Source: an uncultured SAR86 cluster bacterium (GTDB taxonomy: Bacteria; Pseudomonadota; Gammaproteobacteria; Magnimaribacterales; D2472). Taken from it: a DNA stretch of 61,927 nt. Location: assembly GCA_902511575.1 (NCBI GenBank), contig CABXFU010000009.1, positions 1 through 61,927 on the forward strand, in the 5' to 3' direction. Numbering within the stretch: the first letter of the stretch is position 1; each line of letters begins with the position of its first letter. Under the pieces are notes generated by a model. That model was not told the DNA's origin. It did not search any database and saw nothing but the letters and a program-made list of their open reading frames with translations. Both the position numbers and the translations under genes were made by a program. This document shows positions 18,600 to 42,758 of the stretch, one piece after another.

Positions 18600-18869
18600 A
18601 TGCAAGTAAGTGAAATAGAGAGCCAAATCAGCCTTAGATCTGCGCAAACGTGCAAGATTGGAAAATTATTTAAAGAGCGAAGACAATTGCTATCTTTATC
18701 GGAAACTGAAGTTGCCTCTGAAATATTTGTAAATGTAAATTACATCAAGGGTATAGAGCATGGAGATTATTCAATTTTTCCAGCAAGAGTTTTTGCTCTT
18801 CAGTACTTCAAAAAATATGCTAATTTCCTAAACTTAAAATTAGATTTTTTTGATATATATAATTCTTAA
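18600..18869 (+). CDS. Small helix-turn-helix protein (RodZ N-terminal-like)
   Basis: This 89-residue protein consists of one HTH_25/XRE-type domain: GKLFKERRQLLSLSETEVAS, then NVNYIKGIEHGDYSIFPA and LQYFKKYANFL. This is the pattern of the cytoplasmic domain of RodZ, but the transmembrane and periplasmic parts are absent. It could be a free DNA-binding regulator or a truncated RodZ relative. It lies alone before tRNA-Val. Confidence 0.72.
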   Translation: MQVSEIESQISLRSAQTCKIGKLFKERRQLLSLSETEVASEIFVNVNYIKGIEHGDYSIFPARVFALQYFKKYANFLNLKLDFFDIYNS

Positions 18870-23903: not shown

Positions 23904-23905
23904 AA

Positions 23906-24664
23906 TTAATTTAAGTTATATGAAAACATGGTTGATATAGATTCATCTGTTTTTTCAGCCAACATAGGTGGATCTGAGTCGTGAAAAGACGAGTACTGCA
24001 TCGTTATCTTAAAATTTTGATTTACTTTAAAATCTATGGCTAAAATCATACTTGCTTTGTAGTCATTTTCAAAATCATCAATGCTTGGTTGAAAATATAT
24101 CGTTGGCTTGAAATCAATATTTTCTGCAATCTCAAAAGAATTATGAAGATAGAAGCCCAGTCTTTCTGTTGTTTTAGATTGGCCGCCAAGGTCGGTTTCA
24201 TCTTCGCTTAGCAAACCAGCACCCAACCGAGCTGATTTTGAAAGCTCATATCTTAGACCGCCCCCAATAACAGACCTTTTTTTATAGTTTCTAAAGGGAT
24301 TTTCACTGTACTGTCCAAAAATTTCCCAGTTTATTTCTGCTTCGCCAACCCAGATGTATCTTCCATGCATAAAGGTTGATTCATCCATGAGCTTATCATT
24401 GGACTTTCTTTCGCTTTGTTGAAGAATCAAAAAAGACTCTACATTGGTTGAATTATTATCAAATCTTAATTGTGCAGAATAAAAATCTCTATCTCTATTC
24501 CCTCGAGATGCATTCAAATTAGCACTAATACTGGTAAAAAAACCAACTTCGCCTTCGCGTCGCAAGTCTTCGATATTTACGATCGCTTGACCAAAAGCAC
24601 TGAAAGAGCTTAAGCACATCATTAACGTTAGAAAATATTTTTTTCTATTTATTTGTAGCAACAT
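23906..24664 (-). CDS. DUF481-like outer-membrane beta-barrel protein
   Basis: I start it at ATG 24664, giving 252 residues and a signal peptide (MLLQINRKKYFLTLMMCL then SAFGQA). The frame could begin at 24712, but that adds a non-signal extension. The mature protein is a series of amphipathic beta strands with GFFTSISANLNASRGNRD, matching the YncA/DUF481 pattern. It ends MFSYNLN. It overlaps the cyclase gene by 20 bp and precedes MscS by 2 bp, so all are translated together. The function is unknown. Confidence 0.75.
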   Translation of the reverse strand: MLLQINRKKYFLTLMMCLSSFSAFGQAIVNIEDLRREGEVGFFTSISANLNASRGNRDRDFYSAQLRFDNNSTNVESFLILQQSERKSNDKLMDESTFMHGRYIWVGEAEINWEIFGQYSENPFRNYKKRSVIGGGLRYELSKSARLGAGLLSEDETDLGGQSKTTERLGFYLHNSFEIAENIDFKPTIYFQPSIDDFENDYKASMILAIDFKVNQNFKITMQYSSFHDSDPPMLAEKTDESISTMFSYNLN

Positions 24665-26828: not shown

Positions 26829-26841
26829 AGTAATTTATTGC

Positions 26842-27447
26842 TTACTTAATGTAATCCGCAACTTTTTTTATATATTTTTTTTGAGTTTTCTGCGAAAGAT
26901 TCATTAAGTTCACCGAATTCATCAGATCAGTGTAGACATGGATTGATTTTCTGCCTTTTAGTTTTTCACGCAGAGCATTTTGATAAGTCCAAAATATATA
27001 CGTTTGAGCCATTTTGAAGTGCCTTAGGTTATCCTTGTTCAATTCCGGCTCTTCTTCTTGAAAAATCGCATCTTGTAGCCATTGACTGGTCATGGGTTGA
27101 GTTAAAACCCATGCATCATTAATGCTTGCAGGATTATCTATCAGCCAGTTAGCCATGTAGTCGCTTTCAAATAAATCAATGGCAATATACCAACTATAGT
27201 AAACCTTAAAAAGGTTTGATTTCTCTGTTTTCATTTGATTGTCAACTACTTCAGCCGCACTAAGAACTACTTGCACGATTGCAGAGGCATTAATCTCATC
27301 TAAATTATTAAAGTATCTATAAAAGGACCCGTAAGCTGTTTTTGCCTCTTTTGCAATGCTTGACACAGATATTTTTTGACCAACATTAGTCAGATTTATA
27401 ACTGCTTCAATAAGCTTGGCTTTTGTTTGCTCAGATTTTTTCATCAA
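26842..27447 (-). CDS. TetR family transcriptional regulator
   Basis: The 201 residues comprise an N-terminal HTH (SVSSIAKEAKTAYGSFYRYF, residues about 25-45) and a C-terminal helical ligand domain. It is divergent from the Slam-like gene. A palindrome 49 bp upstream of its start is a candidate operator, and a second copy stands before the second giant gene. The gene heads the minus-strand operon with the cyclase. The ligand is unknown. Confidence 0.9.
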   Translation of the reverse strand: MMKKSEQTKAKLIEAVINLTNVGQKISVSSIAKEAKTAYGSFYRYFNNLDEINASAIVQVVLSAAEVVDNQMKTEKSNLFKVYYSWYIAIDLFESDYMANWLIDNPASINDAWVLTQPMTSQWLQDAIFQEEEPELNKDNLRHFKMAQTYIFWTYQNALREKLKGRKSIHVYTDLMNSVNLMNLSQKTQKKYIKKVADYIK

Positions 27448-27495
27448 TCAATTATAACCTCTGACTCACATTAGAGCCTTTAATATTCTAATTAA

Positions 27496-27510
27496 ATGAT
27501 AAATTGTCAT
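27496..27510. promoter_or_regulatory. Palindromic operator candidate, copy 1, upstream of Slam-like gene
   Basis: The sequence ATGATAAATTGTCAT has 7-base arms with 6 of 7 matched around one central base. It belongs to a stretch of about 33 bp (27494-27526) repeated with about four changes at 35377-35408. Promoter-like elements overlap it: a -35-like ATGATA inside the palindrome and a -10-like TAAATA at 27520. A bound TetR protein would block this promoter. Confidence 0.65.
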
Positions 27511-27547
27511 TTTTATGGTTAAATATGCGCCAAATAGGGGATATATA

Positions 27548-27573
27548 TAGGAGTTCCTAAATATATTCTCCTA
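27548..27573 (+). promoter_or_regulatory. Leader hairpin before the Slam-like gene
   Basis: TAGGAG and CTCCTA form a 6-bp stem with a 14-nt loop, ending 7 bases before the ATG at 27581. The only Shine-Dalgarno-like sequence (AGGAG) is inside this stem and too far from the ATG to serve normally. This may limit or regulate translation. Confidence 0.4.
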
Positions 27574-27580
27574 AAAAACC

Positions 27581-28906
27581 ATGAAACCAAGAGCTTTTTT
27601 TCTCATGATATGCATTTTTATGTGGATGCATTCCTTCGCTCAAAATGTAGAGCCTACCATATCCGATCCTAAAGAACTGTCTGCTGCTCTACAACAAAAA
27701 GAAGAGGTATTTAAGCAACTTTTTAAAGACCCAACAAATTTATCATTGCTATTTAAATACGCTAATTTATCAATCATGGTTGGAGATTTAGAGGCAGCCA
27801 TTGGAGTCTTTGAGCAAATGCTAATTTATGACTCAGAGTTGCCAAGAATTAGATTGGAGTTGGGAGTTTTGTATTTTCGTCTAGGCGCATTTGCCTTGGC
27901 TAATAACTATCTAAAAAGTGTAAAAGAATTTAACCCTCCGCCAGAAGTTGAAGCTAGAGTTGATCAATTTTTAGAGGCCATTGTCTCCGCTGAAGAGCCT
28001 TTTCAGTGGCAGCAAACCCTTAGTATTGGCTTTAAGCGGACCACCAATGGAAACTCAGGTATCAATGCAGATTTTATTGAAATTGGTGATTTTTTGTTGG
28101 ACGTTGATCCGGAAAGTCAAAGGCAAAGCGATCGATCTTCTTTATACAATTATTCATTAAGTATTGACCAAGATTTGAATCATCCAAGAGGAGATAACAT
28201 TCAATACTTTTTTAGTTATGGTGCTGATCGATTAGACACATTCAAGCAATTTGATGTGCAAAGCAATGTGTTTTCTGTTAGAAGAAATTTTAATTTAGAC
28301 GAAAATTTCTTTTCTTTTTTTAATCTTGAGGATCCGGTGTTTGCACCTAATATCAATCTTCTTAGGGTCGTTCTCAATCGGCAGGAAATTTTGAGAAGTG
28401 GGCGTATATCTCTAGATTATAGCGGTCAACTAGACAATGGCTCATCTATGCTGTTTACATACTATAGAGAAGAGAAAATTTTTAGGTCAGGAAGACAAAA
28501 AAATGGCCGCATCAATGGAGTTAGTTTTGGTCAAAGCTATGTTTGGGCTGGCTCACAAGCTCTTTATGGTTACAGGGTTATTTTAGAAAACTATCGTGCG
28601 AGTGCAGGCTATGAGTTTTATGAAAATTATGGACTTGAATTAAGTTATTCTCAGCCTTTGGGAGAGAACTGGCAGTTTTCATCTAAATATAGCTACCAAG
28701 ATAAATCTCATGATGATGAATATCCACTTTTTGGTGCAAGACATGATCAAGCAGAAAGTTGGAGGTTTAACATGCTTAGACCTATGGGCGCATGCTGGTC
28801 TATGAACTTGGGATTAGTATTAAATGACTCCAGGAGCACTATTAGTATTTATAAACGCAGAGCCAATAATTTTTCTGCGCAAATTAACTATCAATGCTTA
28901 AAATAA
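27581..28906 (+). CDS. Slam-like (DUF560) TPR and outer-membrane barrel translocator
   Basis: This 441-residue protein has a signal peptide (MKPRAFFLMICIFMWMHSFA), a TPR-like helical region at about residues 50-135 (LSIMVGDLEAAIGVFEQML, IRLELGVLYFRLGAFALA, NPPPEVEARVDQFLEAI), then about 290 residues of alternating beta strands. That order and the PPPEVEARV helix fit surface lipoprotein assembly modulators (Slam, type XI secretion), which move TbpB-like proteins across the outer membrane. The giant gene starts 2 bp later and ends in a TbpB-like barrel, as expected for a Slam substrate. An alternative is a generic TPR/porin protein. Confidence 0.72.
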   Translation: MKPRAFFLMICIFMWMHSFAQNVEPTISDPKELSAALQQKEEVFKQLFKDPTNLSLLFKYANLSIMVGDLEAAIGVFEQMLIYDSELPRIRLELGVLYFRLGAFALANNYLKSVKEFNPPPEVEARVDQFLEAIVSAEEPFQWQQTLSIGFKRTTNGNSGINADFIEIGDFLLDVDPESQRQSDRSSLYNYSLSIDQDLNHPRGDNIQYFFSYGADRLDTFKQFDVQSNVFSVRRNFNLDENFFSFFNLEDPVFAPNINLLRVVLNRQEILRSGRISLDYSGQLDNGSSMLFTYYREEKIFRSGRQKNGRINGVSFGQSYVWAGSQALYGYRVILENYRASAGYEFYENYGLELSYSQPLGENWQFSSKYSYQDKSHDDEYPLFGARHDQAESWRFNMLRPMGACWSMNLGLVLNDSRSTISIYKRRANNFSAQINYQCLK

Positions 28907-28907
28907 T

Positions 28908-31900
28908 ATGAAGCTCGCACGTAAATTCTTATCAATACTTCTACTTACAGGAACTTTTTCCAATGTTGGATTAGCACAAGAGCAAATAGGTGTTGCGTCT
29001 GCGGTCAATAAAAACACTACCGACTTAACCCTTGAGCAAGAGCGCAAGCTCATCGATGCAGGTTATGAAATCATACAAAATCACACCATTGAAACCGATG
29101 GCATTGGCAGAGCGCAAATGTTATTGCTTGATGGCACAGCATTTTCAGTGGGGCCTAATTCCAGCGTCGTTCTTGATAAATTTATTTACAACCCCGAGAC
29201 TGCTGAGGGTTCTCTTGAGGTTACAGCTAGAGGGTTGCTCAGGATCGTTGGCGGTAAAGTTACCAAAAAGCAGCCTGCTTTAATTCGAACCAATTCAGCC
29301 ACTGTCGGAATCAGGGGTGGCATCGGAATTGTGCAGACCAATGGATCCCAAACCAATGCCACGTTCCTTTACGGCACCGAAATGACTGTTACGCCTAATT
29401 GTGTTGATTTAGATTCTTTTGGTGACCAATGTTCTCCAGATTACGCCACCACCGTGACTGAGCCAGGATTTTCAGTTTCGGTTGAAAGTGAAGATTCTGA
29501 GCCTAGCGAACCGGTCGAAGTTACTGAAGAAAGCATAGATGCACTGCAGGAAGAATTAGAAGCGCCAGAAGAAGCTCCAGAAGAGGAGCCCGCTGCTGAG
29601 GAAACTCCGGCTGAGGAGAATCAAGAGGAAGAATCTACCGCAGAAGAAACTCCGGCTGAGGAGACTCAAGCAGACGAGGGAACTGCAAGTGAAGAGACAA
29701 CAACTGAAGAGACTCCTGCCGAAGATGTTGCTCCCGAGTCCACTGAGCCTGAAACTGAAGCACCTGCAGAGATTGAAACTGAAGTTATAAGTGATGATGC
29801 CGGCGATTCTACCGACATAGAAGTCGATGAAGGCTTATTAGATTCATCTGGAGTTTCAGATGTATCTTCAGATGTTGCTCCAGAAGAATTGGGAACAGCA
29901 GAAGAATTTGAGGTAGCTATTGAGCTTGAAACAGTTGAGGCAGATGATGCAAATGAAGATTCAACTGAAAATGTGGCCGAAGAGGTAACTGAAACCACGC
30001 AAGAAACCACTGTGGAAGTTGCTCCTATTTTTGTTGTAGAAACTGAGGATGTGGTTGCAAGCTTTGATGAAAATACTACCGAAATAAGCTTAGCTCAGTT
30101 TGCTATTGTTAACCCAGGTGAACAGAATTATACGGTGACCATTGAGGGTGAGGGCAGCGAAGCTTTTACCTATAATCAAGAAACCAACTCTTTAGAGGTG
30201 ATCCAAGAGCTTGATCATGAATCACAAGCAAGCGTTGAGTTGACCGTTACATTTACCAGTGATAATGGCGATATTCAGGAGGTCGCTTTCGCACTGGATG
30301 TAACCGATGTGGATGAAGCGGTGGTGCTTGCAGTTGAGCCTGTTAATACTATTAGTGAGGCGGCCATCAGCAGTGAGCTTATTGCTAATCAAGTTAATGT
30401 GTCTGAAACAGTTCCAGCTGGAACAGTGGTAGCTACTTTCAGTGCAACTGATCCTGAAGGTAATGCTCTCTCATATTCCCTAAGTGGAAGTGGCAGTGAT
30501 CTGATGACAGTCTCTGAAACCGGTGAGGTAACTCTCACGGGTGATTTAGATTTTGAAGCTAATTCATCGTTAGTTGTAATGCTAGAAATTTCTGATGGAA
30601 CCAATACTACTATTGAAGAAATCACCATCAATGTCATCAATGATGATGAGCCAGCTACTATTGCAGCCACTTTAAGCGCTGCTTCATTTGCAGAAACCTC
30701 TGCTGTGGGAGCTGCCATCGCTTCCATTAATGCCACCGATCCTGAGGGCAGTGCGGTGACTTATACACTGAGCGGAACTGGGAGCGATAACTTTAGCATT
30801 GATGCCAGCGGTAACATTACCCTTGCCAGCGGTTTAGATTATGAAACAGCAACCTCATATGAATTAACCGTGGTTGTCGATGATGGCACCTATGCTTCAA
30901 CTGAAGTTATTACCGTGAGCGTTGCCGATGTCAATGAGGCACCATCTTTGAGTGCAACTGTTGCCTTCAATGCCTTCCAAGAAAATACAGCAACCGGTAC
31001 TACCATTGCCACTAGTTCTGTTAGCGACCCTGAAGCTGGAGCCATTACTTACACTTTATCAGGTACAGGCAGTGAAAATTTCACTGTCAGTTCTGATGGA
31101 ACCGTAACTTTAGCTAGTGGATTGGATTATGAGACTGCCACTGCATACGCAATTACTTTAACAGCTTCGGATGGAGCTAATTCCGTTTCTGAAACGCTCA
31201 CCATTAATGTTGGCGATATCAATGAGGCTCCAAGTCTGACTAATTCATTGGCTGCATCTTCCTTTGCCGAGAATGTTGCAACCGGAACTACAATTGCCAC
31301 GAGCTCAGCAAGTGACCCAGAAGCTGGAACGATTACTTACTCCATCTCTGGTACCGGCAGTGAGAACTTTGCCATTGACGCAAATGGTAATGTGACCCTA
31401 GCTTCAAGTTTAGACTATGAAACCACTACCTCATATTCACTCACCATCACCGCCAGCGATGGCACTAATTCAACCCAGCAAACGCTTTCAATTTCTGTTA
31501 CTGACATCATTGAATTTGGACTAGCGCTCAGCAGTAATTCAGTATCAATTAATGAAGATATGAGCAGCGGCAGTCAAGTAGCCACCTCAACACTTACTCA
31601 AGAAGGAACTGAGACAGTGACTTACACACTCTCTGGAACCGACAGTGATAAATTTGCGATTTCTAGCAGCGGAGTTATTACCACAAATACAATCCTTGAT
31701 CATGAAACCACAACCTCTTATTCACTTACAGTGACTGTGAGTGATGGAACCAATACCGATACTGAAACTCTAACCATTGCCATCAATGATATTGATTTAA
31801 CTGTTACGAATACTTTAGCTGCTTCAGGTCAAGCAGAGAATATTTCAACAGGAACGTCCATTATGACTGCCTCAGCTTCAGGGGCTGAAGGCACCGTGAG

Positions 31901-34900
31901 TTACTCAATTACGGATAGCGATAATAAATTTTCGATTAATAGCTCAACGGGTGAGGTAACACTTGCTAATGCGCTCGATTATGAAACTAAAACTTCTCAT
32001 ACTTTCACCGTAACCGCCACTGATGGAGTGACCACAGTAACTGAAGAATTCACTCTTAATGTAACGGATATGATCATCAGTACTCTAGCTGTAAGCCTAG
32101 CAAACAGTGGGGCGGCATTGGCGGAATCTTCGAGTTCTGGAACTTCAGTAGGAAGTTCGAGCATTAGTAACCCAGACAGTGAAACGGTTACCTATACTTT
32201 GAGTGGCACCGGCAGCAGTAATTTTGCCGTCGACAGCTCGGGCAATGTCACCACCAATGCAACCTTGGATTTTGAAACCGCAAAAAGCTATGCATTAACT
32301 TTAACTGCCACCGCAGGAGGCAACACCACCACCGATGCCTTTACGGTTAATGTGGGTAACGTTGAAGAGCTTCGTTCAGGCGTTTTACGTTACTCAGCAG
32401 CCTATAACTCGGCTTCAAGAAGTGGCTTTAGCGCCACGGCCACGCGTGGACCTTCTGGTTCAAGTTTGCCGGCTTATACTCTTGAGCAAGTTGGAACAAC
32501 GAATACAACTCTTATTACCAACGTAGATGACACCACAAACAACTATGTACCAGTAGAAATCAATTCTGGAACTGCGCTCAATTGGCGCTATTATTTCCCC
32601 ATTGATACTGCAGGCAATGGACAGTATGCCTTTGCACCCAACAGTGCTTCGGTGGATGGAAAATACTATAGTCCTCTAGGTACTGCTGTTACCACCACCA
32701 TCAGCAACTCAGAATTTATCACTGCAGGAAGATCCAACGGCGGTGAATTTTGGTTCATGACCACCGATAAGGCGGCCGCAAATATTAATTATACTTCTGC
32801 ATTATTGATAGGTTTGAACGTTCGATGGAACTATCAGACTTATCATAGCTCTTGGACGACTGCCAACAATGCTCTTACGAGTCCATTTACACTTGATCTT
32901 GTTAGCGGTACTAATGCCTTGGATTACACGTTTTCAGATGTGCAAGATTATCAGGTGTTAGTTCATGGAATTGGTGTTTGTTGCGCTGATGGCAATTACG
33001 GATATGATAATTTTGATTCTACCGAGCAGGCAGTAGCTCGTCAGTTTCTTCAACAAAGTAACAGAGTCCTTGTTTTAGTTGGTGAAAATAATAATTGGGC
33101 AAAACAGAATGATGAGATTGTTACCTTTTTAGAGTCAATCATGGATGGAAGTGATTTCAGCCATACTTATAATAATGGAACTATGAATGCATTTAATTTT
33201 ACTTACGAAGGTTTTAATTTTGCCCAAAATACTGCGTTAAGTTCCGCTCCATCGACTTTGAATTGCGATTCAAATTTTAACACTTACTGTTATGGAAGCT
33301 GGGCTTTTTTCCCAGCCTCAATGACCGATTCCGAGTATCTATCAGATGTCTTTGTTTGGCTTGATGTTAATCAACCCGGAGCAACTACGGTTGATAATCA
33401 AATCTTGCAGTACGCCCAAGGATTAGGAGGGTCTACAGCAACCTCATCAACTTACTATCTTTACGAAGATCAGGTCACCATTGCTGGAGAAATTCAGACA
33501 GACGCTAACTTTGCTGGTATCAACTCATCAAAAAAAGTTTACGCATTTGCGGTTAATCCGCGTGAAAACTTTGCTCCCACTGGTACCACCAATGATTATT
33601 TTTATCCTAACTTTATTAATCGCTCTGCATGGTCCTATGGGGATGTTGGATTAGATTACTGTGCATCCCAGGAGAATAATAATTCAACGTCGTGTCAAAC
33701 TTACGACAATAATTATGATTTCCACTATCAGAGCCTTTATTCAGGTTATATAATGTCTGATCGATTTGATAATTCTTACCAACGCATACCAGAGGGGATG
33801 TCTCTTTGGTGGCAAGTTCTCAATCCAAGTGGCGTAGGTGTTGGGTTATGGGCGCAAATTTCTATCAAAGATTCATACAACGGTGCTACTCAGTCGACCA
33901 CAAGGGATGATCAGCAAAGTCTACTCAACGTAGTAATTTCTAATATTGACTACCGTAAGAACGACACCACCCGATACTCAGCAGGGGATACTGGTCATGG
34001 CATGGATGGTTATCATTATTGGTCTTATCAAGGGGCTACCAATGCAGACCAAAATGGTTTGGGACTTGTCTATGGTACTTCTCCCATCGAATGCGCCACT
34101 TCCCATGACAGTGGATGTTTCTTTGGTTATTCAACTTCCTATCCTAAAGGACTCATGCTGACCTCCTCTGACCCATACAAATCTGGCAGCATGACTTTAG
34201 GGGTTAATTACGACAGCAACAATGATTCTTTTTCAACTGGCTCATTCAATCAAGCAATAACTTTTCAGTTCATCAGTGACAGTGGCAATATAGAACAAAA
34301 ACAAACTCTTAGTGAGTTTAGGCATTCGGATTTTTATTCCTCGACTGCCACGGCTTACAGCGGATTTTTCAGCGGCATTTTAGAGTTTGATATTAGTGGG
34401 ACTGGAAACCAACAATTGGCGCCCATCCGCTCTAGCAGCACGCTTGCAACCTTTACGTTTGATGCCACCAACGATGATGTGCAAGTGGTGGCTCCGATGA
34501 CCATTAGTGCCGCACCCCCAAGTAACTACACCACCACCAATTGGACTACAGTTGATACAGGTTCCATCACATTAAAATTTGGTGATGCCACCAACGATGA
34601 AGCAAAATCAGCTTACATTTCAAGTGAAGTCTTTGGCGCTGAGATTCAAGACGATGGATCGCAGATTGACGGTTCTTCGGGGGGTTCTAATAACCTTGCT
34701 GGTGTCATGGTTTCTTATAACACTTTGGATAATGAAGACTCCGATCTATTCCACGTAAACGGTAATGATTCGATGCCAGATACCGCTTATTCGACTTGGG
34801 GCTTTTGGGCCATGAGTGCGGCTGACGTCTCACCTAATTCTGGCACGCAAAACGCCTCGGTGCATTTAGGGACTTGGGTGGGCGGTGAAGTGGTTGCCCA

Positions 34901-35354
34901 AAATGAAATTCCAACTTCAGGCACGGCTTCGATGAGTGGGGCAGCAGTGATGAAAGTAGCCTCTCGTTACAATACGACCGGCCACCAATACGACGTCATT
35001 AAATACACCACCACCGCCGATGTGGCCGCAACTTTTAACTGGGGCGCAAGTGGCTATTCTGGGACTTTAGCTTTTACCAACTTTGATGATAAAAACCCGA
35101 TTGTTGCCAATGCAGGATTTGCTTCCTTCTCAGTGGCGATTACCGGCACCGATCATACCTACACGGGTAATTCAACTGATAGCCTTGATAATTCTTGGTT
35201 GGGTGGTGCCTCTGTGGCTGGAGCTTTATACGGGGATTCATCGCCCGATGAGAGTGGCGGCAGAGTGAATGTGAGCTTGTATAAATCTGGGTCCACTTGG
35301 ACGCAAGGCGCCAATGATTTTTATTTTGCTGAAGGGATCTATCTAGTCGATTAA
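28908..35354 (+). CDS. Giant FecR-cadherin surface protein, copy 1
   Basis: This 2148-residue protein has a signal peptide (residues 1-23, no lipobox), a FecR domain at about 40-150 (IETDGIGRAQMLLLDGTAFS...VGIRGGIGIV), an acidic Glu/Ala/Pro/Thr linker at about 200-370, and eight cadherin-like repeats at about 375-1150. DPEG/DYET/DVNEAP Ca2+ ligand motifs are clear in repeats 2-5 and degraded in 6-8. A head follows: a conserved part, a variable insert (about 1296-1513) and a C-terminal beta-rich region. Its last 250 residues (SMSGAAVM, GYSGTLAFTNFDDKNP, SVAGALYGDSSPDESGGRVNV) resemble TbpB barrels. It is translated 2 bp after the Slam-like gene. No membrane anchor or type I signal is seen. The function is unknown, and adhesion or ligand capture is inferred. 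Confidence 0.85.
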   Translation: MKLARKFLSILLLTGTFSNVGLAQEQIGVASAVNKNTTDLTLEQERKLIDAGYEIIQNHTIETDGIGRAQMLLLDGTAFSVGPNSSVVLDKFIYNPETAEGSLEVTARGLLRIVGGKVTKKQPALIRTNSATVGIRGGIGIVQTNGSQTNATFLYGTEMTVTPNCVDLDSFGDQCSPDYATTVTEPGFSVSVESEDSEPSEPVEVTEESIDALQEELEAPEEAPEEEPAAEETPAEENQEEESTAEETPAEETQADEGTASEETTTEETPAEDVAPESTEPETEAPAEIETEVISDDAGDSTDIEVDEGLLDSSGVSDVSSDVAPEELGTAEEFEVAIELETVEADDANEDSTENVAEEVTETTQETTVEVAPIFVVETEDVVASFDENTTEISLAQFAIVNPGEQNYTVTIEGEGSEAFTYNQETNSLEVIQELDHESQASVELTVTFTSDNGDIQEVAFALDVTDVDEAVVLAVEPVNTISEAAISSELIANQVNVSETVPAGTVVATFSATDPEGNALSYSLSGSGSDLMTVSETGEVTLTGDLDFEANSSLVVMLEISDGTNTTIEEITINVINDDEPATIAATLSAASFAETSAVGAAIASINATDPEGSAVTYTLSGTGSDNFSIDASGNITLASGLDYETATSYELTVVVDDGTYASTEVITVSVADVNEAPSLSATVAFNAFQENTATGTTIATSSVSDPEAGAITYTLSGTGSENFTVSSDGTVTLASGLDYETATAYAITLTASDGANSVSETLTINVGDINEAPSLTNSLAASSFAENVATGTTIATSSASDPEAGTITYSISGTGSENFAIDANGNVTLASSLDYETTTSYSLTITASDGTNSTQQTLSISVTDIIEFGLALSSNSVSINEDMSSGSQVATSTLTQEGTETVTYTLSGTDSDKFAISSSGVITTNTILDHETTTSYSLTVTVSDGTNTDTETLTIAINDIDLTVTNTLAASGQAENISTGTSIMTASASGAEGTVSYSITDSDNKFSINSSTGEVTLANALDYETKTSHTFTVTATDGVTTVTEEFTLNVTDMIISTLAVSLANSGAALAESSSSGTSVGSSSISNPDSETVTYTLSGTGSSNFAVDSSGNVTTNATLDFETAKSYALTLTATAGGNTTTDAFTVNVGNVEELRSGVLRYSAAYNSASRSGFSATATRGPSGSSLPAYTLEQVGTTNTTLITNVDDTTNNYVPVEINSGTALNWRYYFPIDTAGNGQYAFAPNSASVDGKYYSPLGTAVTTTISNSEFITAGRSNGGEFWFMTTDKAAANINYTSALLIGLNVRWNYQTYHSSWTTANNALTSPFTLDLVSGTNALDYTFSDVQDYQVLVHGIGVCCADGNYGYDNFDSTEQAVARQFLQQSNRVLVLVGENNNWAKQNDEIVTFLESIMDGSDFSHTYNNGTMNAFNFTYEGFNFAQNTALSSAPSTLNCDSNFNTYCYGSWAFFPASMTDSEYLSDVFVWLDVNQPGATTVDNQILQYAQGLGGSTATSSTYYLYEDQVTIAGEIQTDANFAGINSSKKVYAFAVNPRENFAPTGTTNDYFYPNFINRSAWSYGDVGLDYCASQENNNSTSCQTYDNNYDFHYQSLYSGYIMSDRFDNSYQRIPEGMSLWWQVLNPSGVGVGLWAQISIKDSYNGATQSTTRDDQQSLLNVVISNIDYRKNDTTRYSAGDTGHGMDGYHYWSYQGATNADQNGLGLVYGTSPIECATSHDSGCFFGYSTSYPKGLMLTSSDPYKSGSMTLGVNYDSNNDSFSTGSFNQAITFQFISDSGNIEQKQTLSEFRHSDFYSSTATAYSGFFSGILEFDISGTGNQQLAPIRSSSTLATFTFDATNDDVQVVAPMTISAAPPSNYTTTNWTTVDTGSITLKFGDATNDEAKSAYISSEVFGAEIQDDGSQIDGSSGGSNNLAGVMVSYNTLDNEDSDLFHVNGNDSMPDTAYSTWGFWAMSAADVSPNSGTQNASVHLGTWVGGEVVAQNEIPTSGTASMSGAAVMKVASRYNTTGHQYDVIKYTTTADVAATFNWGASGYSGTLAFTNFDDKNPIVANAGFASFSVAITGTDHTYTGNSTDSLDNSWLGGASVAGALYGDSSPDESGGRVNVSLYKSGSTWTQGANDFYFAEGIYLVD
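28983..32366 (+). repeat. Homogenised 3.4-kb direct repeat, copy 1 (FecR, linker and stalk)
   Basis: Matches 35547-38930 at a constant offset of 6564. About ten synonymous differences occur in the first 330 bp. From about 29310 to 32364 I saw none by eye. The match breaks at codons for VEE-L, the end of cadherin repeat 8, after which the copies diverge at most synonymous sites. Confidence 0.9.
32796..33447 (+). other. Variable insert of giant protein copy 1
   Basis: About 217 residues with no obvious sequence match to the insert at the same place in copy 2, although the flanks are about 80% identical. The strand pattern (SALLIGLNVRW, YQVLVHGIG, RVLVLVGENN with helices between) suggests a small alpha/beta, GATase-like fold. 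A vicinal cysteine pair (VCCADG) is present. Confidence 0.7.
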
Positions 35355-35378
35355 TTAAGGTTTGGAGAATACATATAA

Positions 35379-35393
35379 ATGACAATTTGTCAT
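35379..35393. promoter_or_regulatory. Palindromic operator candidate, copy 2, with promoter of second giant gene
   Basis: ATGACAATTTGTCAT has perfect 7-base arms around one T. It lies 25 bp after the copy 1 stop and repeats the element at 27496. ATGACA (35379-35384) as -35, a 17-bp spacer and TAAAAT (35402-35407) as -10 make a good sigma70-like promoter overlapping the palindrome, so the second giant gene probably has its own TetR-repressible promoter. Confidence 0.68.
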
Positions 35394-35474
35394 TTTTATG
35401 TTAAAATACTTTAATTCTTGATTTATTACTTTCACCATTTATTGCCTCTTAACTTATTAAGGAGATTAATCTAG

Positions 35475-38400
35475 TTGGCTATATTTAATATTCGTATTAT
35501 TCTTGCTTTTTTGTGCCTATTTCCCAGTCTGCTGCTTGGACAAGAACAAATTGGTGTTGCGTCTGCGGTCAATAAAAACACCACCGATTTAACCCTCGAG
35601 CAAGAGCGCAAGCTCATCGATGCAGGTTATGAAATCATACAAAATCACACCATTGAAACCGATGGCATTGGCAGAGCGCAAATGTTATTGCTTGATGGCA
35701 CAGCATTTTCAGTGGGGCCTAATTCCAGCGTCGTTCTTGATAAATTTATTTACAACCCCGAGACGGCTGAGGGCTCTCTTGAGGTTACAGCCAGAGGCTT
35801 GCTCAGGATCGTTGGCGGTAAAGTTACCAAAAAGCAGCCTGCTTTAATTCGAACCAATTCAGCCACGGTCGGAATCAGGGGTGGCATCGGAATTGTGCAG
35901 ACCAATGGATCCCAAACCAATGCCACGTTCCTTTACGGCACCGAAATGACTGTTACGCCTAATTGTGTTGATTTAGATTCTTTTGGTGACCAATGTTCTC
36001 CAGATTACGCCACCACCGTGACTGAGCCAGGATTTTCAGTTTCGGTTGAAAGTGAAGATTCTGAGCCTAGCGAACCGGTCGAAGTTACTGAAGAAAGCAT
36101 AGATGCACTGCAGGAAGAATTAGAAGCGCCAGAAGAAGCTCCAGAAGAGGAGCCCGCTGCTGAGGAAACTCCGGCTGAGGAGAATCAAGAGGAAGAATCT
36201 ACCGCAGAAGAAACTCCGGCTGAGGAGACTCAAGCAGACGAGGGAACTGCAAGTGAAGAGACAACAACTGAAGAGACTCCTGCCGAAGATGTTGCTCCCG
36301 AGTCCACTGAGCCTGAAACTGAAGCACCTGCAGAGATTGAAACTGAAGTTATAAGTGATGATGCCGGCGATTCTACCGACATAGAAGTCGATGAAGGCTT
36401 ATTAGATTCATCTGGAGTTTCAGATGTATCTTCAGATGTTGCTCCAGAAGAATTGGGAACAGCAGAAGAATTTGAGGTAGCTATTGAGCTTGAAACAGTT
36501 GAGGCAGATGATGCAAATGAAGATTCAACTGAAAATGTGGCCGAAGAGGTAACTGAAACCACGCAAGAAACCACTGTGGAAGTTGCTCCTATTTTTGTTG
36601 TAGAAACTGAGGATGTGGTTGCAAGCTTTGATGAAAATACTACCGAAATAAGCTTAGCTCAGTTTGCTATTGTTAACCCAGGTGAACAGAATTATACGGT
36701 GACCATTGAGGGTGAGGGCAGCGAAGCTTTTACCTATAATCAAGAAACCAACTCTTTAGAGGTGATCCAAGAGCTTGATCATGAATCACAAGCAAGCGTT
36801 GAGTTGACCGTTACATTTACCAGTGATAATGGCGATATTCAGGAGGTCGCTTTCGCACTGGATGTAACCGATGTGGATGAAGCGGTGGTGCTTGCAGTTG
36901 AGCCTGTTAATACTATTAGTGAGGCGGCCATCAGCAGTGAGCTTATTGCTAATCAAGTTAATGTGTCTGAAACAGTTCCAGCTGGAACAGTGGTAGCTAC
37001 TTTCAGTGCAACTGATCCTGAAGGTAATGCTCTCTCATATTCCCTAAGTGGAAGTGGCAGTGATCTGATGACAGTCTCTGAAACCGGTGAGGTAACTCTC
37101 ACGGGTGATTTAGATTTTGAAGCTAATTCATCGTTAGTTGTAATGCTAGAAATTTCTGATGGAACCAATACTACTATTGAAGAAATCACCATCAATGTCA
37201 TCAATGATGATGAGCCAGCTACTATTGCAGCCACTTTAAGCGCTGCTTCATTTGCAGAAACCTCTGCTGTGGGAGCTGCCATCGCTTCCATTAATGCCAC
37301 CGATCCTGAGGGCAGTGCGGTGACTTATACACTGAGCGGAACTGGGAGCGATAACTTTAGCATTGATGCCAGCGGTAACATTACCCTTGCCAGCGGTTTA
37401 GATTATGAAACAGCAACCTCATATGAATTAACCGTGGTTGTCGATGATGGCACCTATGCTTCAACTGAAGTTATTACCGTGAGCGTTGCCGATGTCAATG
37501 AGGCACCATCTTTGAGTGCAACTGTTGCCTTCAATGCCTTCCAAGAAAATACAGCAACCGGTACTACCATTGCCACTAGTTCTGTTAGCGACCCTGAAGC
37601 TGGAGCCATTACTTACACTTTATCAGGTACAGGCAGTGAAAATTTCACTGTCAGTTCTGATGGAACCGTAACTTTAGCTAGTGGATTGGATTATGAGACT
37701 GCCACTGCATACGCAATTACTTTAACAGCTTCGGATGGAGCTAATTCCGTTTCTGAAACGCTCACCATTAATGTTGGCGATATCAATGAGGCTCCAAGTC
37801 TGACTAATTCATTGGCTGCATCTTCCTTTGCCGAGAATGTTGCAACCGGAACTACAATTGCCACGAGCTCAGCAAGTGACCCAGAAGCTGGAACGATTAC
37901 TTACTCCATCTCTGGTACCGGCAGTGAGAACTTTGCCATTGACGCAAATGGTAATGTGACCCTAGCTTCAAGTTTAGACTATGAAACCACTACCTCATAT
38001 TCACTCACCATCACCGCCAGCGATGGCACTAATTCAACCCAGCAAACGCTTTCAATTTCTGTTACTGACATCATTGAATTTGGACTAGCGCTCAGCAGTA
38101 ATTCAGTATCAATTAATGAAGATATGAGCAGCGGCAGTCAAGTAGCCACCTCAACACTTACTCAAGAAGGAACTGAGACAGTGACTTACACACTCTCTGG
38201 AACCGACAGTGATAAATTTGCGATTTCTAGCAGCGGAGTTATTACCACAAATACAATCCTTGATCATGAAACCACAACCTCTTATTCACTTACAGTGACT
38301 GTGAGTGATGGAACCAATACCGATACTGAAACTCTAACCATTGCCATCAATGATATTGATTTAACTGTTACGAATACTTTAGCTGCTTCAGGTCAAGCAG

Positions 38401-41400
38401 AGAATATTTCAACAGGAACGTCCATTATGACTGCCTCAGCTTCAGGGGCTGAAGGCACCGTGAGTTACTCAATTACGGATAGCGATAATAAATTTTCGAT
38501 TAATAGCTCAACGGGTGAGGTAACACTTGCTAATGCGCTCGATTATGAAACTAAAACTTCTCATACTTTCACCGTAACCGCCACTGATGGAGTGACCACA
38601 GTAACTGAAGAATTCACTCTTAATGTAACGGATATGATCATCAGTACTCTAGCTGTAAGCCTAGCAAACAGTGGGGCGGCATTGGCGGAATCTTCGAGTT
38701 CTGGAACTTCAGTAGGAAGTTCGAGCATTAGTAACCCAGACAGTGAAACGGTTACCTATACTTTGAGTGGCACCGGCAGCAGTAATTTTGCCGTCGACAG
38801 CTCGGGCAATGTCACCACCAATGCAACCTTGGATTTTGAAACCGCAAAAAGCTATGCATTAACTTTAACTGCCACCGCAGGAGGCAACACCACCACCGAT
38901 GCCTTTACGGTTAATGTGGGTAACGTTGAAGAACTTGAATCAGCAGTGCTGCGTTATTCTGCTGACTATAACTCAGCCTCAAGAAGTGGCTTTAGCGCCA
39001 CGGCCACGCGTGGACCTTCTGGATCAAGCCTCGCTGCCTACACTTTAGAGCAAGTCGGTACCACCAATTCAACTGCCATTACTTCAGTGGATGATACGTC
39101 TAATAACTATGTTCCGGTGGAAATCAATTCTGGAACTGCATTGAATTGGCGTTATTATTTTCCTATTGATACTAGTGGTAGTGGCGAATTTGCTTTTGCG
39201 CCAAATTCTTCTGCACTCGATGGCAAGTATTACAGTCCTCTAGGCACGGCAGTCACTACCACCATAGCCAATGCTGACTTCCTGACTGCAGGACGACTAG
39301 AAGGTGCTGAATATTGGTTCATGACCACTGATAAGGCAGCAGCTAATATTTCTTATACTGCATCAAGCGGAGCAACGAATGTTCTGTTCTTATGGTCTTT
39401 TGTATCAAATAGCTATGATAACGGTTCTTCTTCTGCAGCCAATAGATGGAGGGATGTTGTTACTGATGCGGGCGGGACTTTCACAGTACTTCAAAATCCT
39501 GGAGTCAGTAGTACATGGCCAAGCGATCTTTCTCCTTACAATATCATTTTAGATTTTCGTTTGCCTTACAACGTCGGCCATAATGCCAATGCCTCGGCTT
39601 TAGCAAGCTATGTTCAAAATGGCGGTTACTTATTTAAAATATGGACGGAGAACGGTTGTTGTGGAAGCGCAACAGTAATGGCAGAAACAAATTCTATTTT
39701 ATCTGCACTTGGCTACGGCTCATCTTCTCTAGCCAGCACTCAAAGCAATACCAAAAATTTTAGCATTCCAACAGATCTAACCAATAATTCCAATATCGAT
39801 TTTAGCCCTCTAGTGGGTGATCAAATACAAGTTGGTGGAGGCGAAGGAATAATGAGCACTCCATCAGGATGTTATGATCTTGGATCTGGAGCTTTCATCT
39901 GGTGTGATCCTTCAGGCAATGATTCATCCTACACTGGAGTCTTTGGTGGTTTCGGAGGCGTGGATTCAGTTGTAAATCATGGAAATGGTTATCAAGCCCA
40001 AAACAGATCTTGGTTTGATTGGCTGATAGGTTTAAATGCACCAAGTGGCTCAACCTCAACCTACAACCTTTACGAAGATCAGGTCACCTTAGCCGGAGAA
40101 GTTTATAAGGATGCAAACTTTGTATCCTTTACCAATGGAAATAAAAGAGTCATTGCCATGGCAGTCATCCCGCTTGAAAACTTTACAGCTTCTGGAACCA
40201 CGAATGATTATTTCTATCCTAATTTTATTCCAACTAATGTATGGTCTTATGGCGATGTTGGTCTGAATTATTGTGCAGGTACAGGTAATTCCTCTTCTGC
40301 TTGCGCGGCATCTTACCAACTAAACTATGACTTTGCGAGAATGGCTCTTAATGAAGCTAATATTATTTATACCAATAGAATGCCTCATACCAGCACCAGT
40401 TATCTGCCTGAAGGTACATCCATGTGGTGGCAGGTACTAAATCCAAGCGGAGTAGGGACCGGTCTTTGGGCGCAAATTTCTTTGAAAGATTCCTATGACG
40501 GTGCCTCAGGCAGTACCACTCGAGATGATCAACAGAGTCTTTTGAATGTGGTGATATCTAATGTGGATTATCGAAAAAATGATACAACAAGATACTCAGC
40601 AGGAGATACTGGCTTGGGCATGGATGGTTATCATTATTGGTCCTATCAAGGTGCGACCAATGCAGATAATGATGGTTTGGGTATTAACTATGGTACTTCT
40701 TCAATTGAGTGTGCAACCTCTAATGATAGCGGCTGCTTTTGGGGTGATAGCTCCAATCAACCTGGCGGCGCCATGATCACATCTTCTGATCCTTACAAGT
40801 CAGGCAGTATGACTTTGGGGGTTAACTATAACTCTAATAACGATACCTTCAGCACCGGCTCCTTTAATGTTTCTGCTGTGGTGCAAGACGTGAGAACTTC
40901 TGGCGTTGGTTCCGGAGCTTATCATAATCTGAGTGACTTTAGATCTTCAGATTTTTACTCCTCAAGTGCTACGGGCTACAGCGGATTTTTCAGTGGCATT
41001 TTAGAATTTGATGTCAGTGGCACAGGCAACTCTCAGCTGTCTTCGATTCGCTCAAGCAGCACGCTTGCAACCTTTGCGTTTGATACCACCAACGATGATG
41101 TGCAAGTGGTGGCTCCGATGACCATCAGTGCTGCTCCATCAAATAACTATTCGTCTAATTGGAGCACTGTGGATACCGGCTCTATGACCTTGAAGTTTGG
41201 TGATGCCACCAACGATGAGGCGAAATCAGCTTACATTTCAAGTGAAGTCTTTGCAGCTGAGATTCAAGACGATGGCGCGCAAATTGATGGCACTTCGGGG
41301 GGTTCAAATAATCTAGCTGGAGTGATGGTTTCATACAATACATTAGATAGAGAGGATACTGATTTATTCCACACAGGCGGCAACGATTCGATGCCAGATA

Positions 41401-41972
41401 CCGCTTATTCAACTTGGGGCTTTTGGGCCATGAGCGCGGTTGATGTTTCGCCTAATTCTGGAACCCAAAATGCTTCGGTGCATTTGGGGACCTGGGTTGG
41501 CGGAGAAGTGGTTGATCAAAGCGAAATTCCAACCTCAGGCTCAGCTTCGATGAGTGGGGCAGCGGTCATGAATGTGGCTTATCGTTACAACCAAACGGGC
41601 ACTAATTATGATGTGCATAAATACACAACGACTGCCGATGTCGCAGCCACCTTTAATTGGGGATCCAGTGGTTATTCTGGAACTCTAGCCTTCACCAATT
41701 TTGATGATAAAAATCCTATTGTTGATAATGCAGGCTTTGCTTCCTTCTCGGTTGCCATTACCGGCACCGATAATACCTACACGGGTAATTCGACCGACAG
41801 CTTAGCTAATTCTTGGTTGGGTGGTGCGTCTGTGGCTGGAGCGTTATATGGAGACTCATCGCCCGATGAGAGTGGTGGTAGAGTGAATGTGAACTTGTAT
41901 AAATCAGGCGATACCGGTACAGCTGGAGCCAATGATTTTTATTTTGCTGAAGGGATTTATTTGGTTGATTGA
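35475..41972 (+). CDS. Giant FecR-cadherin surface protein, copy 2
   Basis: This 2165-residue protein starts at TTG 35475, the only start before the signal peptide (MAIFNIRIILAFLCLFPS), with AAGGAG 10 bases upstream. Residues 25-1152 are the same as copy 1 residues 26-1153 as far as I can see (FecR, acidic linker, eight cadherin-like repeats). The signal peptide is unrelated to that of copy 1. The head is homologous but diverged, with a different insert at about 1295-1525. The C-terminal TbpB-like barrel is retained and ends FYFAEGIYLVD as in copy 1. It has its own promoter and palindrome. It is probably exported by the same Slam-like translocator (inference). Confidence 0.85.
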   Translation: MAIFNIRIILAFLCLFPSLLLGQEQIGVASAVNKNTTDLTLEQERKLIDAGYEIIQNHTIETDGIGRAQMLLLDGTAFSVGPNSSVVLDKFIYNPETAEGSLEVTARGLLRIVGGKVTKKQPALIRTNSATVGIRGGIGIVQTNGSQTNATFLYGTEMTVTPNCVDLDSFGDQCSPDYATTVTEPGFSVSVESEDSEPSEPVEVTEESIDALQEELEAPEEAPEEEPAAEETPAEENQEEESTAEETPAEETQADEGTASEETTTEETPAEDVAPESTEPETEAPAEIETEVISDDAGDSTDIEVDEGLLDSSGVSDVSSDVAPEELGTAEEFEVAIELETVEADDANEDSTENVAEEVTETTQETTVEVAPIFVVETEDVVASFDENTTEISLAQFAIVNPGEQNYTVTIEGEGSEAFTYNQETNSLEVIQELDHESQASVELTVTFTSDNGDIQEVAFALDVTDVDEAVVLAVEPVNTISEAAISSELIANQVNVSETVPAGTVVATFSATDPEGNALSYSLSGSGSDLMTVSETGEVTLTGDLDFEANSSLVVMLEISDGTNTTIEEITINVINDDEPATIAATLSAASFAETSAVGAAIASINATDPEGSAVTYTLSGTGSDNFSIDASGNITLASGLDYETATSYELTVVVDDGTYASTEVITVSVADVNEAPSLSATVAFNAFQENTATGTTIATSSVSDPEAGAITYTLSGTGSENFTVSSDGTVTLASGLDYETATAYAITLTASDGANSVSETLTINVGDINEAPSLTNSLAASSFAENVATGTTIATSSASDPEAGTITYSISGTGSENFAIDANGNVTLASSLDYETTTSYSLTITASDGTNSTQQTLSISVTDIIEFGLALSSNSVSINEDMSSGSQVATSTLTQEGTETVTYTLSGTDSDKFAISSSGVITTNTILDHETTTSYSLTVTVSDGTNTDTETLTIAINDIDLTVTNTLAASGQAENISTGTSIMTASASGAEGTVSYSITDSDNKFSINSSTGEVTLANALDYETKTSHTFTVTATDGVTTVTEEFTLNVTDMIISTLAVSLANSGAALAESSSSGTSVGSSSISNPDSETVTYTLSGTGSSNFAVDSSGNVTTNATLDFETAKSYALTLTATAGGNTTTDAFTVNVGNVEELESAVLRYSADYNSASRSGFSATATRGPSGSSLAAYTLEQVGTTNSTAITSVDDTSNNYVPVEINSGTALNWRYYFPIDTSGSGEFAFAPNSSALDGKYYSPLGTAVTTTIANADFLTAGRLEGAEYWFMTTDKAAANISYTASSGATNVLFLWSFVSNSYDNGSSSAANRWRDVVTDAGGTFTVLQNPGVSSTWPSDLSPYNIILDFRLPYNVGHNANASALASYVQNGGYLFKIWTENGCCGSATVMAETNSILSALGYGSSSLASTQSNTKNFSIPTDLTNNSNIDFSPLVGDQIQVGGGEGIMSTPSGCYDLGSGAFIWCDPSGNDSSYTGVFGGFGGVDSVVNHGNGYQAQNRSWFDWLIGLNAPSGSTSTYNLYEDQVTLAGEVYKDANFVSFTNGNKRVIAMAVIPLENFTASGTTNDYFYPNFIPTNVWSYGDVGLNYCAGTGNSSSACAASYQLNYDFARMALNEANIIYTNRMPHTSTSYLPEGTSMWWQVLNPSGVGTGLWAQISLKDSYDGASGSTTRDDQQSLLNVVISNVDYRKNDTTRYSAGDTGLGMDGYHYWSYQGATNADNDGLGINYGTSSIECATSNDSGCFWGDSSNQPGGAMITSSDPYKSGSMTLGVNYNSNNDTFSTGSFNVSAVVQDVRTSGVGSGAYHNLSDFRSSDFYSSSATGYSGFFSGILEFDVSGTGNSQLSSIRSSSTLATFAFDTTNDDVQVVAPMTISAAPSNNYSSNWSTVDTGSMTLKFGDATNDEAKSAYISSEVFAAEIQDDGAQIDGTSGGSNNLAGVMVSYNTLDREDTDLFHTGGNDSMPDTAYSTWGFWAMSAVDVSPNSGTQNASVHLGTWVGGEVVDQSEIPTSGSASMSGAAVMNVAYRYNQTGTNYDVHKYTTTADVAATFNWGSSGYSGTLAFTNFDDKNPIVDNAGFASFSVAITGTDNTYTGNSTDSLANSWLGGASVAGALYGDSSPDESGGRVNVNLYKSGDTGTAGANDFYFAEGIYLVD
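35547..38930 (+). repeat. Homogenised 3.4-kb direct repeat, copy 2
   Basis: Partner of 28983-32366. The abrupt end at a domain boundary and the sparse synonymous changes only near the 5' end look like a gene-conversion tract. A misassembly should be excluded. Confidence 0.9.
39360..40050 (+). other. Variable insert of giant protein copy 2
   Basis: About 230 residues unlike the copy 1 insert in sequence. It has NVLFLWSFV, YNIILDFRLPYN, ALASYVQNGGYLFKIW and NSILSALG, an alternating strand/helix pattern of the ThuA/GATase-like type, plus a Cys-Cys pair (NGCCGS). A shared fold with the copy 1 insert is my inference. Confidence 0.7.
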
Positions 41973-42020: not shown

Positions 42021-42758
42021 ATGAATACATTTGTAGATTTTTTTCTAAAAGTTAGAAACAGTAAAGCCTTTAGCGGTATTGTTATTGCTGTAATTGTGGC
42101 CTCTGCGATCTATGCAGGTGTTAGCTCTTATGACATATCCCCTGAGTACACGGTTTACTTAGACCTATTTGACTATGCCATTACCTTGTTTTTCTTAATT
42201 GAGATTATTATTCGAATGATCTCTGAACGCTCTTTGGTTAAATTCTTTAGCGATGGTTGGAACATTTTTGATTTCTTAATTGTGACCATATCCTTGGTTC
42301 CGATTAACAATGTTGAAAGTGTTTTTGTGGCTAGATTGCTGAGAATTATTCGTGTGCTAAGAATCATCACCGTTGTTCCAGCTTTCCGTCATATTATCGA
42401 CTCATTAATCAAAACCATTCCAAGAGTCGGTTTTATAGCCTTACTTATGTTCATCTTTATGTATGTATGGGGCGCTATAGGTACCATGTTCTTTGGTAAG
42501 GTGGATCCAGCCAATTGGGGCAACATTGGCTTGGCTTTAATTACTTTAGTGCAAGTTGCGACTTATGATGATTGGGCAAACATTATGGCGCAAGTCATAG
42601 ATGTTTATCCGTATGCTTGGATTTTCTTTGTGTCTTTTATCATCATCAATGCCGTAATTTTACTTAATATGGTTATTGGTGTGATCGTCGATGTCATGAC
42701 TGGTGGAACTGGGATTGATGATCTGGTCAATCCAGAGAACAAGGACTCTACTGACTAG
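42021..42758 (+). CDS. Voltage-gated cation channel (NaChBac/NavAb-like single domain)
   Basis: This 245-residue protein has six transmembrane segments. S4 carries regularly spaced arginines (RLLRIIRVLRII) and the pore has QVATYDDWANIM at the place of the NavAb filter TLESWSM. The two acidic residues (DD) resemble the engineered Ca2+-selective CavAb filter (TLDDWSD), so Ca2+ passage is possible. GGAG precedes the ATG and the gene begins 48 bp after giant copy 2, possibly in the same transcript. It overlaps the convergent dehydratase gene by 11 bp. Confidence 0.92.
   Translation: MNTFVDFFLKVRNSKAFSGIVIAVIVASAIYAGVSSYDISPEYTVYLDLFDYAITLFFLIEIIIRMISERSLVKFFSDGWNIFDFLIVTISLVPINNVESVFVARLLRIIRVLRIITVVPAFRHIIDSLIKTIPRVGFIALLMFIFMYVWGAIGTMFFGKVDPANWGNIGLALITLVQVATYDDWANIMAQVIDVYPYAWIFFVSFIIINAVILLNMVIGVIVDVMTGGTGIDDLVNPENKDSTD

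Follow-up and report, generated by a model that had tools for sequence, protein, structure and literature searches.

Identical stalk tract and variable head inserts in tandem genes for putative giant surface proteins of a SAR86 bacterium

How can two neighbouring genes be identical in DNA over about 3 kb and yet encode strongly diverged heads? The question is raised by a 61,927-nucleotide stretch of DNA (contig CABXFU010000009.1 of assembly GCA_902511575.1; the whole stretch is called the window here) from an uncultured SAR86 cluster bacterium, whose genome is assembled into 25 contigs and is 83% complete.

The tandem genes and their identical tract

The pair and its shared parts are laid out as follows:

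28908-35354, + strand: gene A, a giant protein of 2148 aa (open reading frame, Pfam and profile matches)
35475-41972, + strand: gene B, a 2165-aa paralogue of A with a TTG start and another signal peptide and insert
28977-29303, + strand: 5' edge of the region in which A and B are similar, A copy; 10 silent differences from B
29304-32368, + strand: exact tract, A copy; FecR from codon 133, linker and all cadherin repeats
35868-38932, + strand: exact tract, B copy

Gene A encodes a signal peptide, a FecR domain, an acidic linker, eight cadherin stretches, a head bearing a type 1 insert and a C-terminal barrel-like domain, and Pfam recovers FecR and the eight cadherin stretches in each of the two proteins. 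The two tracts form an exact DNA match of 3,065 bp at an offset of 6564, and aligning the copies site by site gives no difference in codons 133-1153 over 738.7 synonymous and 2324.3 nonsynonymous sites. An earlier reading of this DNA, made from its letters only, had FecR, linker and eight repeats shared without any DNA difference; this stands for the 3,065 bp, but the FecR part is not identical throughout, since codons 24-132 hold 10 synonymous and no nonsynonymous differences. The remaining boundaries are as that sequence-only reading described them. The signal peptides, 5' of codon 24, are dissimilar (the promoters differ as well), divergence sets in abruptly 3' of 32368, with a dS of 1.57 in the N-terminal and 1.46 in the C-terminal part of the head, and the tract stops, as judged by eye, where the last of the eight Pfam cadherin stretches ends.

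Strong purifying selection on the stalk protein is one conceivable source of such identity, as the head cores are indeed strongly constrained (dN 0.17 against dS 1.46 between the C-terminal head parts of A and B). The same stalk region nevertheless varies freely between species, and the lack of any difference at 738.7 silent sites lies beyond the reach of selection at the protein level, leaving this explanation ruled out for practical purposes. Zero silent differences between diverged flanks are instead explained by recent recombination of the tandem genes, whether conversion or unequal exchange. Among the other resolved pairs no recent homogenisation was found; as the four other tandem pairs lack it, the preferred reading of the 3-kb identity is a single recent recombination within the stalk (the longest identical run in nine other within-genome pairs is 149 bp). 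The likely donor is A: of the 10 silent sites of the 5' edge, A agrees with its close relative G018 at 9 and B at none. The event would probably have run from A to B, by either of these two routes. Recombination between identical stalks would then be likely to set the head of B behind the 5' end of A, adjoining the Slam-like gene upstream. That very combination of ends exists in G018, the single gene of which joins an A-like signal peptide and 5' end to a B head.

The identity is known from the assembled contig, and a short-read assembler might have merged similar but non-identical stalks and used one consensus twice. An assembly graph can resolve a simple tandem loop even where no read spans it. 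The region is also hard to assemble, as seen from the excess of contig ends within these genes in relatives (30 where 6.8 are expected, from rounded contig counts). Lone silent differences nevertheless survive at the 5' edge, such as that at 29303, flanked by identical runs of 68 and 3,065 bases; divergence begins abruptly at 32369; and in G049 and G050 stalk copies that are 83-87% alike stayed separate. Merging might mask a slight difference, but not divergence of the level seen in the heads, and an assembly effect is accordingly judged unlikely. Whether the contig ends prove that relatives have identical stalks was also considered, and the idea was rejected: in a comparison of ends from G121, G047 and G051, same-end exact stretches reach at most 16 bases, the closest overlap being 74 bp at 97% between two G051 contigs.

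A more serious contender holds that a segment carrying the head of A along with the promoter and 5' end of B entered a G018-like single gene through the stalk, by insertion or unequal exchange, and thereby duplicated the stalk. This would account for the single G018 gene with its A-like 5' end and B head, and for the finding of one giant gene between the Slam-like gene and the channel in 8 of 8 genus relatives with a complete locus. A near-identical counterpart of the promoter and TTG-started signal peptide of B is, moreover, present in another genome; in AG-313-A10 the gene behind the Slam-like gene bears both. The heads of B and G018 are 97-100% identical in DNA by segment, insert included, with uninterrupted matches of 694 and 544 bp, but the distal stalk of G018 is only 69% identical to that of B and differs from the tract with a dS of 1.62 (codons 771-1153), so that the direct parent was not G018 itself. 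This route is given a substantial chance, somewhat short of even.

Stalk, head and insert among relatives

The sequence-only reading had proposed a variation system, with heads that diversify on a stalk kept uniform by conversion. The recent recombination of A and B agrees with it, as does the pattern within this genome, and in G049 and G050 the paralogous FecR-stalk parts (83-87% identical in DNA) are as alike as the orthologous ones (82-88%), with heads at 58-67% when the insert is left out. The constant stalk did not survive comparison with relatives. Between species, stalks differ as much as heads or more, at mean amino-acid distances of 27-41% for stalks and 13-25% for head cores, and in G018 a head like that of B is joined to a distal stalk unlike that of B. 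Copy number, likewise proposed for comparison, is one in the complete genus loci and two in the four other tandem loci, where recent homogenisation is lacking. The matches listed in the window's genome, at its 83% completeness, are A, B and part of a third head, with no silent donor cassette among them, and no RVT_1 reverse transcriptase was found in the same incomplete genome. A standing system of this kind is considered decidedly improbable. A diversity-generating retroelement was rejected as well, on this lack of RVT_1 in an incomplete genome and on the presence of changes of every type in the four pairs listed.

The variable unit of the head is an insert of about 230-260 aa, which falls into about seven types among 21 inserts:

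32772-33458, + strand: head insert of A, 229 aa, type 1
39336-40067, + strand: head insert of B, 244 aa, type 2

These two inserts, previously called unrelated, are 22% identical. An untrimmed profile comparison gave direct homology a probability score of 90.7, which fell to 0.31, not above that of shuffles, once 14 conserved edge residues were trimmed from each side; direct homology is therefore rejected, but an indirect chain remains from type 1 through type 6 to the group of B (scores of 79 and 96), and the inserts may thus be linked through a third type.

Among 12 locus-1 genes, distances in FecR (Mantel r 0.93), the stalk segment stalk1 (0.60) and the head segment C1 (0.61) follow those of the species marker CHASE2, while insert distances are decoupled from it (r 0.14, p 0.14). 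Between A and G045_C12, which belongs to another genus, the insert has a dS of only 0.04 against 3.16 in the C-terminal part of the head, and the insert is taken as transferred between genera on this comparison of sequences. In another family, the tandem pair of G114 carries inserts of the A-like and B-like types, at 57% and 83% amino-acid identity. The insert dN/dS exceeds 1 in 3 of 9 pairs, none of them significant singly, and positive selection, suggested by these three pairs (pooled p 0.005, pairs chosen post hoc), was rejected since the signal is absent over all nine. The insert appears to evolve fast, as a recognition surface would. The predicted structure of the head has a pLDDT of 32.3 and is unusable.

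The Slam-like neighbour and the overall reading

The genes and elements around the pair, with the C-terminal domains of A and B, are:

24645-26828, - strand: CHASE2-guanylate/adenylate cyclase, a conserved neighbour
26842-27447, - strand: TetR-type regulator, divergent from the Slam-like gene (Pfam match below cut-off)
27495-27511, no strand: palindrome of 17 bp in the intergenic space of regulator and Slam-like gene
27581-28906, + strand: putative Slam-like outer-membrane protein (P0003), with TPR and about 14 long strands predicted to form a barrel
34908-35264, + strand: C-terminal stretch of A; weak TbpB_B_D match (E 0.076, below cut-off) and slam_lipo (E 0.0016) in the same domain
35378-35394, no strand: the same 17-bp palindrome upstream of B
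41400-41969, + strand: C-terminal domain of B, the counterpart of that of A by alignment
42021-42758, + strand: Ion_trans-family ion channel, a conserved downstream neighbour

The Slam-like gene stops one base before A, and SAR86 accounts for 13 of the 14 named loci that have such a gene. TPR occurs in all 14 partner homologues and SlipAM in 6 of them (best E 0.0017), with none in P0003 at E 1. The partner model, of low confidence (pLDDT 61.8), has 14 long strands, and the fold matches listed for it are porins, CymA and OmpG among them, and other barrels, none being Slam. Among 13 C-termini, TbpB_B_D is found in 3 (best E 9.2e-5) and NF041636 slam_lipo in 11 (best 2.2e-5); gene A scores below both cut-offs (14 of 26 bits and 18.7 of 80 bits, respectively), and a PDB search with this domain returned no sequence match up to E 10. 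A Slam-like gene is present at 24 of 35 retrieved loci with a FecR match and missing at 11, partly owing to contig ends; none was found in the retrieved stretch of the f2 tandem loci. The upstream protein thus looks like Slam (type XI) and the C-terminus like that of Slam cargo, both matches being weak but in agreement. The adjacent protein would probably carry A and B over the outer membrane, and their C-terminal barrel-like domain would target them for secretion.

The reading considered reasonably probable places A and B, as a tandem pair, in a SAR86 family of mosaic giant surface proteins, probably exported by Slam, with an exchangeable recognition-like insert and one recent event in the stalk. 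Each protein would combine a FecR base that is inherited vertically, a cadherin stalk that changes fast, and a head with a conserved frame and an insert swapped between species and genera by homologous recombination. If true, these are large surface receptors with a small variable domain that moves among genera, the frame and the stalk evolving separately; they would offer a testable handle on how phage, grazers, particles or partners select SAR86 cell surfaces, and would add giant proteins of the cadherin type to the range of Slam export. A bolder version appears improbable as a whole. It posits a polymorphic receptor for recognition that is exported by Slam and mounted on a stalk, with insert alleles common to genera and families that diversify under selection (phage, grazers, partner choice) and with signalling through the conserved CHASE2 cyclase and cyclic-nucleotide-gated and voltage-gated channels; the identical stalks of tandem copies would let the Slam-linked site swap its head. 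A literature search pairing SAR86 with CHASE2 found nothing.

Comparison with known systems

The cargo of type XI systems (Slam/TXISS), such as TbpB, hemophilin and HrpC, is encoded beside a partner with TPR and a β-barrel, and is described as having variable N-terminal parts and a C-terminal barrel; one unlipidated cargo is on record (PMC8406197, PMC12282271). The words SAR86, FecR and cadherin are absent from the main text of PMC12282271. Genes A and B would resemble cargo so described in the adjoining partner, with its TPR and predicted barrel, and in the putative C-terminal barrel-like domain, but differ in exceeding 2,000 aa, in their FecR and cadherin repeats and in the weakness of the family matches.

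CdiA likewise combines a long stalk with modular tip exchange, and A and B share with it a long stalk and an exchangeable end region, but contain no Pfam toxin domain at E 0.1 and have an export partner of another kind. Paralogous surface-protein sequences with identical segments recombine in the BabA/BabB conversion of Helicobacter and in MgpB/C of Mycoplasma genitalium, as appears to be the case here. Those systems have shared ends around a variable middle, or partial donor copies, whereas A and B have in common a single 3-kb tract of 5' and stalk sequence, with no partial donor copies among the matches listed. TraA of myxobacteria is a polymorphic receptor of the cell surface that has repeats and a variable domain open to exchange. 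It is built of other domains but offers a likeness in overall design, as A and B would also be polymorphic surface proteins in which a repeat region accompanies an exchangeable variable domain, here with a putative role in recognition.

Two tandem genes and their identical tract

The two giant surface-protein genes, A and B, each encode a FecR domain followed by eight cadherin stretches recognized by Pfam:
28908-35354, gene A, 2148 aa, open frame in tandem with B
35475-41972, gene B, 2165 aa, open frame in tandem with A

The genes are identical over 3,065 bp (29304-32368 in A, at an offset of 6564), and codons 133-1153 hold no difference in 738.7 synonymous sites, which bears out the sequence-only reading of a stalk lacking DNA differences even at silent positions. 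The FecR portion, which that reading had treated as shared throughout, is identical only from codon 133, with 10 synonymous and no nonsynonymous differences at the 5' edge (codons 24-132). Outside the tract the divergence described earlier is present, with dS values of 1.57 and 1.46 in the N- and C-parts of the head and dissimilar signal peptides. Neither chance nor selection at the protein level can produce this pattern of identity.

At the 10 silent sites of the 5' edge, the close relative G018 matches A at 9 and B at none, which suggests that the identical tract continues the history of A and that A was the likely donor. G018 carries a single gene with an A-like signal peptide and the head of B, and its distal stalk is unlike the tract (dS 1.62 over codons 771-1153). 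A gene of AG-313-A10 has a promoter and TTG-started signal peptide nearly those of B. At this locus (L074/L089), the match to the Slam-like gene (the gene directly upstream of A in the window; 27581-28906, + strand) ends 282 bp before the next giant gene. Inspected by eye, this gap begins with ~120 bp unlike B and closes with ~160 bp of B-like promoter and signal peptide, and the Slam-like frame is seemingly extended; the gap is possibly the scar of a lost first gene.

Recent homogenization is found in one of the five resolved tandem pairs, a count that follows from the low identity of the four tandem pairs of the SAR86 family f2 (64-81% over alignable FecR and stalk segments) and from short exact runs elsewhere (at most 149 bp in nine other within-genome pairs), and that may be biased because identical pairs are those that short reads tend to leave unresolved. 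In two further genomes, G049 and G050, the FecR-stalk parts are 83-87% alike between paralogues and 82-88% between orthologues, with paralogous heads 58-67% alike when the insert is left aside; here the process seen in A and B has left an older trace. Copies with clearly different stalks coexist in G045 and likewise in G051. Contig ends fall inside these giant genes 30 times against 6.8 expected (from rounded contig counts and our own tally of ends), an enrichment that is no proof of identical copies in other genomes. Two contigs of G121 (L100 and L101, 3' ends) stop at the same FecR place, near the start of the identical tract of the window.

Stalk, head frame and insert between species

The claim that the stalk stays constant while heads diversify fails between species. 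Among twelve locus-1 genes, with this genome represented by B and A omitted, mean amino-acid distances reach 40.5 and 27.2 in stalk1 and stalk2 against 25.3, 19.2 and 12.7 in head C1, N and C2, and the stalk is therefore more changeable than the head frame. The insert, a variable segment inside the head, stands at 68.3. Mantel Spearman correlations with the CHASE2 protein, used as species marker, are 0.93 for FecR, 0.92 for the Slam-like protein, 0.85 for both channel and linker, 0.81 for stalk2, 0.77, 0.72 and 0.61 for head C2, N and C1, and 0.60 for stalk1; the insert, at 0.14 (p 0.14), is thus decoupled from descent. About seven insert types occur among 21 inserts with both anchors (38 gene pieces examined), as grouped by us at identities of at least 39% within and at most 35% between types.

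Compared by sequence, inserts evidently travel separately from their frames. Those of G033 and G031 are 94% identical in DNA, with adjoining head parts at 76% and 66%; A and G045_C12, of another genus, differ by a dS of 0.04 in the insert and 3.16 in the head C-part; and the tandem pair of G114, from another family, bears one B-type insert (83% aa) and one A-type insert (57% aa). Head sequence is also shared without a mismatch over 694 and 544 bp between B and G018 and over 440 bp between B and G019, the stalk1 of which has a DNA identity of 55%. For 8 of nine chosen pairs, nonsynonymous changes make up a larger share in the insert than they do in the head C-part (Fisher p ≤0.013; G033-G031 not significant). 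Insert dN/dS exceeds 1 in three of the nine, singly not significant (p 0.07-0.09), and a nonsynonymous excess in the insert is absent over all nine.

Probable export and a candidate operator

The Slam-like gene product comprises 441 aa with TPR (Pfam). SlipAM is recognized in 6 out of 14 homologues, the lowest E being 0.0017, and the window's own protein has no SlipAM match at E 1. A low-confidence model (pLDDT 61.8) forms a barrel of 14 long strands, and porins top its fold matches, led by CymA and including OmpG. The barrels of CymA and OmpG have 14 strands each. Within their C-terminal 190 aa, 3 of 13 giant proteins are hit by TbpB_B_D (lowest E 9.2e-5) and 11 of 13 by NCBIfam slam_lipo (lowest E 2.2e-5), with the C-terminus of A below both cut-offs (14 against 26 bits and 18.7 against 80 bits). 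With a weak match for each partner, and the two genes adjoining, the likeliest interpretation is Slam (type XI) export of the giant proteins. By eye, no lipobox cysteine precedes the conserved QEQIG start in A or B; cysteines do occur in this region in some relatives, such as G049_C1. An unlipidated Slam cargo is described in PMC8406197. At the f2 tandem loci, the fetched stretch yielded no Slam-like gene.

A 17-bp palindrome, AATGACAAwTTGTCATT, occurs at three places in the window (6 matches over both strands, 0.78 expected):
27495-27511, upstream of the Slam-like gene
35378-35394, upstream of B
18536-18552, weaker copy, at a small HTH_25 gene (18600-18866)

Among 23 relative loci scanned, 22 carry the palindrome (3 mismatches at most) ahead of either the Slam-like gene or the giant gene; L068 duplicates L033 in this set, G018:C35 has no match, and a few extra matches fall elsewhere. 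As a candidate operator, the palindrome would be bound by the product of the TetR-type gene divergent from the Slam-like gene.

Neighbourhood and distribution

The genome of the window (1.39 Mb, 25 contigs, 83% complete) holds, at contig ends, a third giant-protein head, ~50% identical (G000:C1:38-1102; L049), and a second Slam-like gene, 67% identical (G000:C19:1-567; L090), and pieces like these are also present in G018. When named genomes were scanned with the Slam-like protein, 14 loci came up, 13 titled SAR86 (two of which, L068 and L076, share one genome) and one titled Gammaproteobacteria bacterium TMED104. The window genome's own records may be omitted from this set, and its assignment to SAR86 therefore rests on kinship. 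The FecR part is found in 18 of 107 family genomes (E 1e-20) and the C-terminal 190 aa in 48 of 203 order genomes (E 1e-6).

Gene order in relatives runs CNG channel, MscS, DUF481, CHASE2 cyclase, TetR, Slam-like gene, giant gene, ion channel and PALP. Among related, not independent, fetched loci, CHASE2 is present in 22 of 24 having both Slam-like gene and FecR (the exceptions being the second G018 locus and G140, where the contig stops inside the Slam-like gene), and the ion channel in 15 of the 17 that also have the head on the same contig. The CHASE2 cyclase, cNMP-gated channel, MscS and Ion_trans channel (21712-28906 and 42021-42758 in the window) keep their place beside the giant gene across two families of SAR86, with MscS seen in f1 only. 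The cyclase and channel neighbours may form a surface-sensing module with the giant gene. Sinorhizobium offers a loose parallel to this neighbouring cyclase: there a cAMP-dependent regulator targets a FecR-domain gene (PMC5498481).
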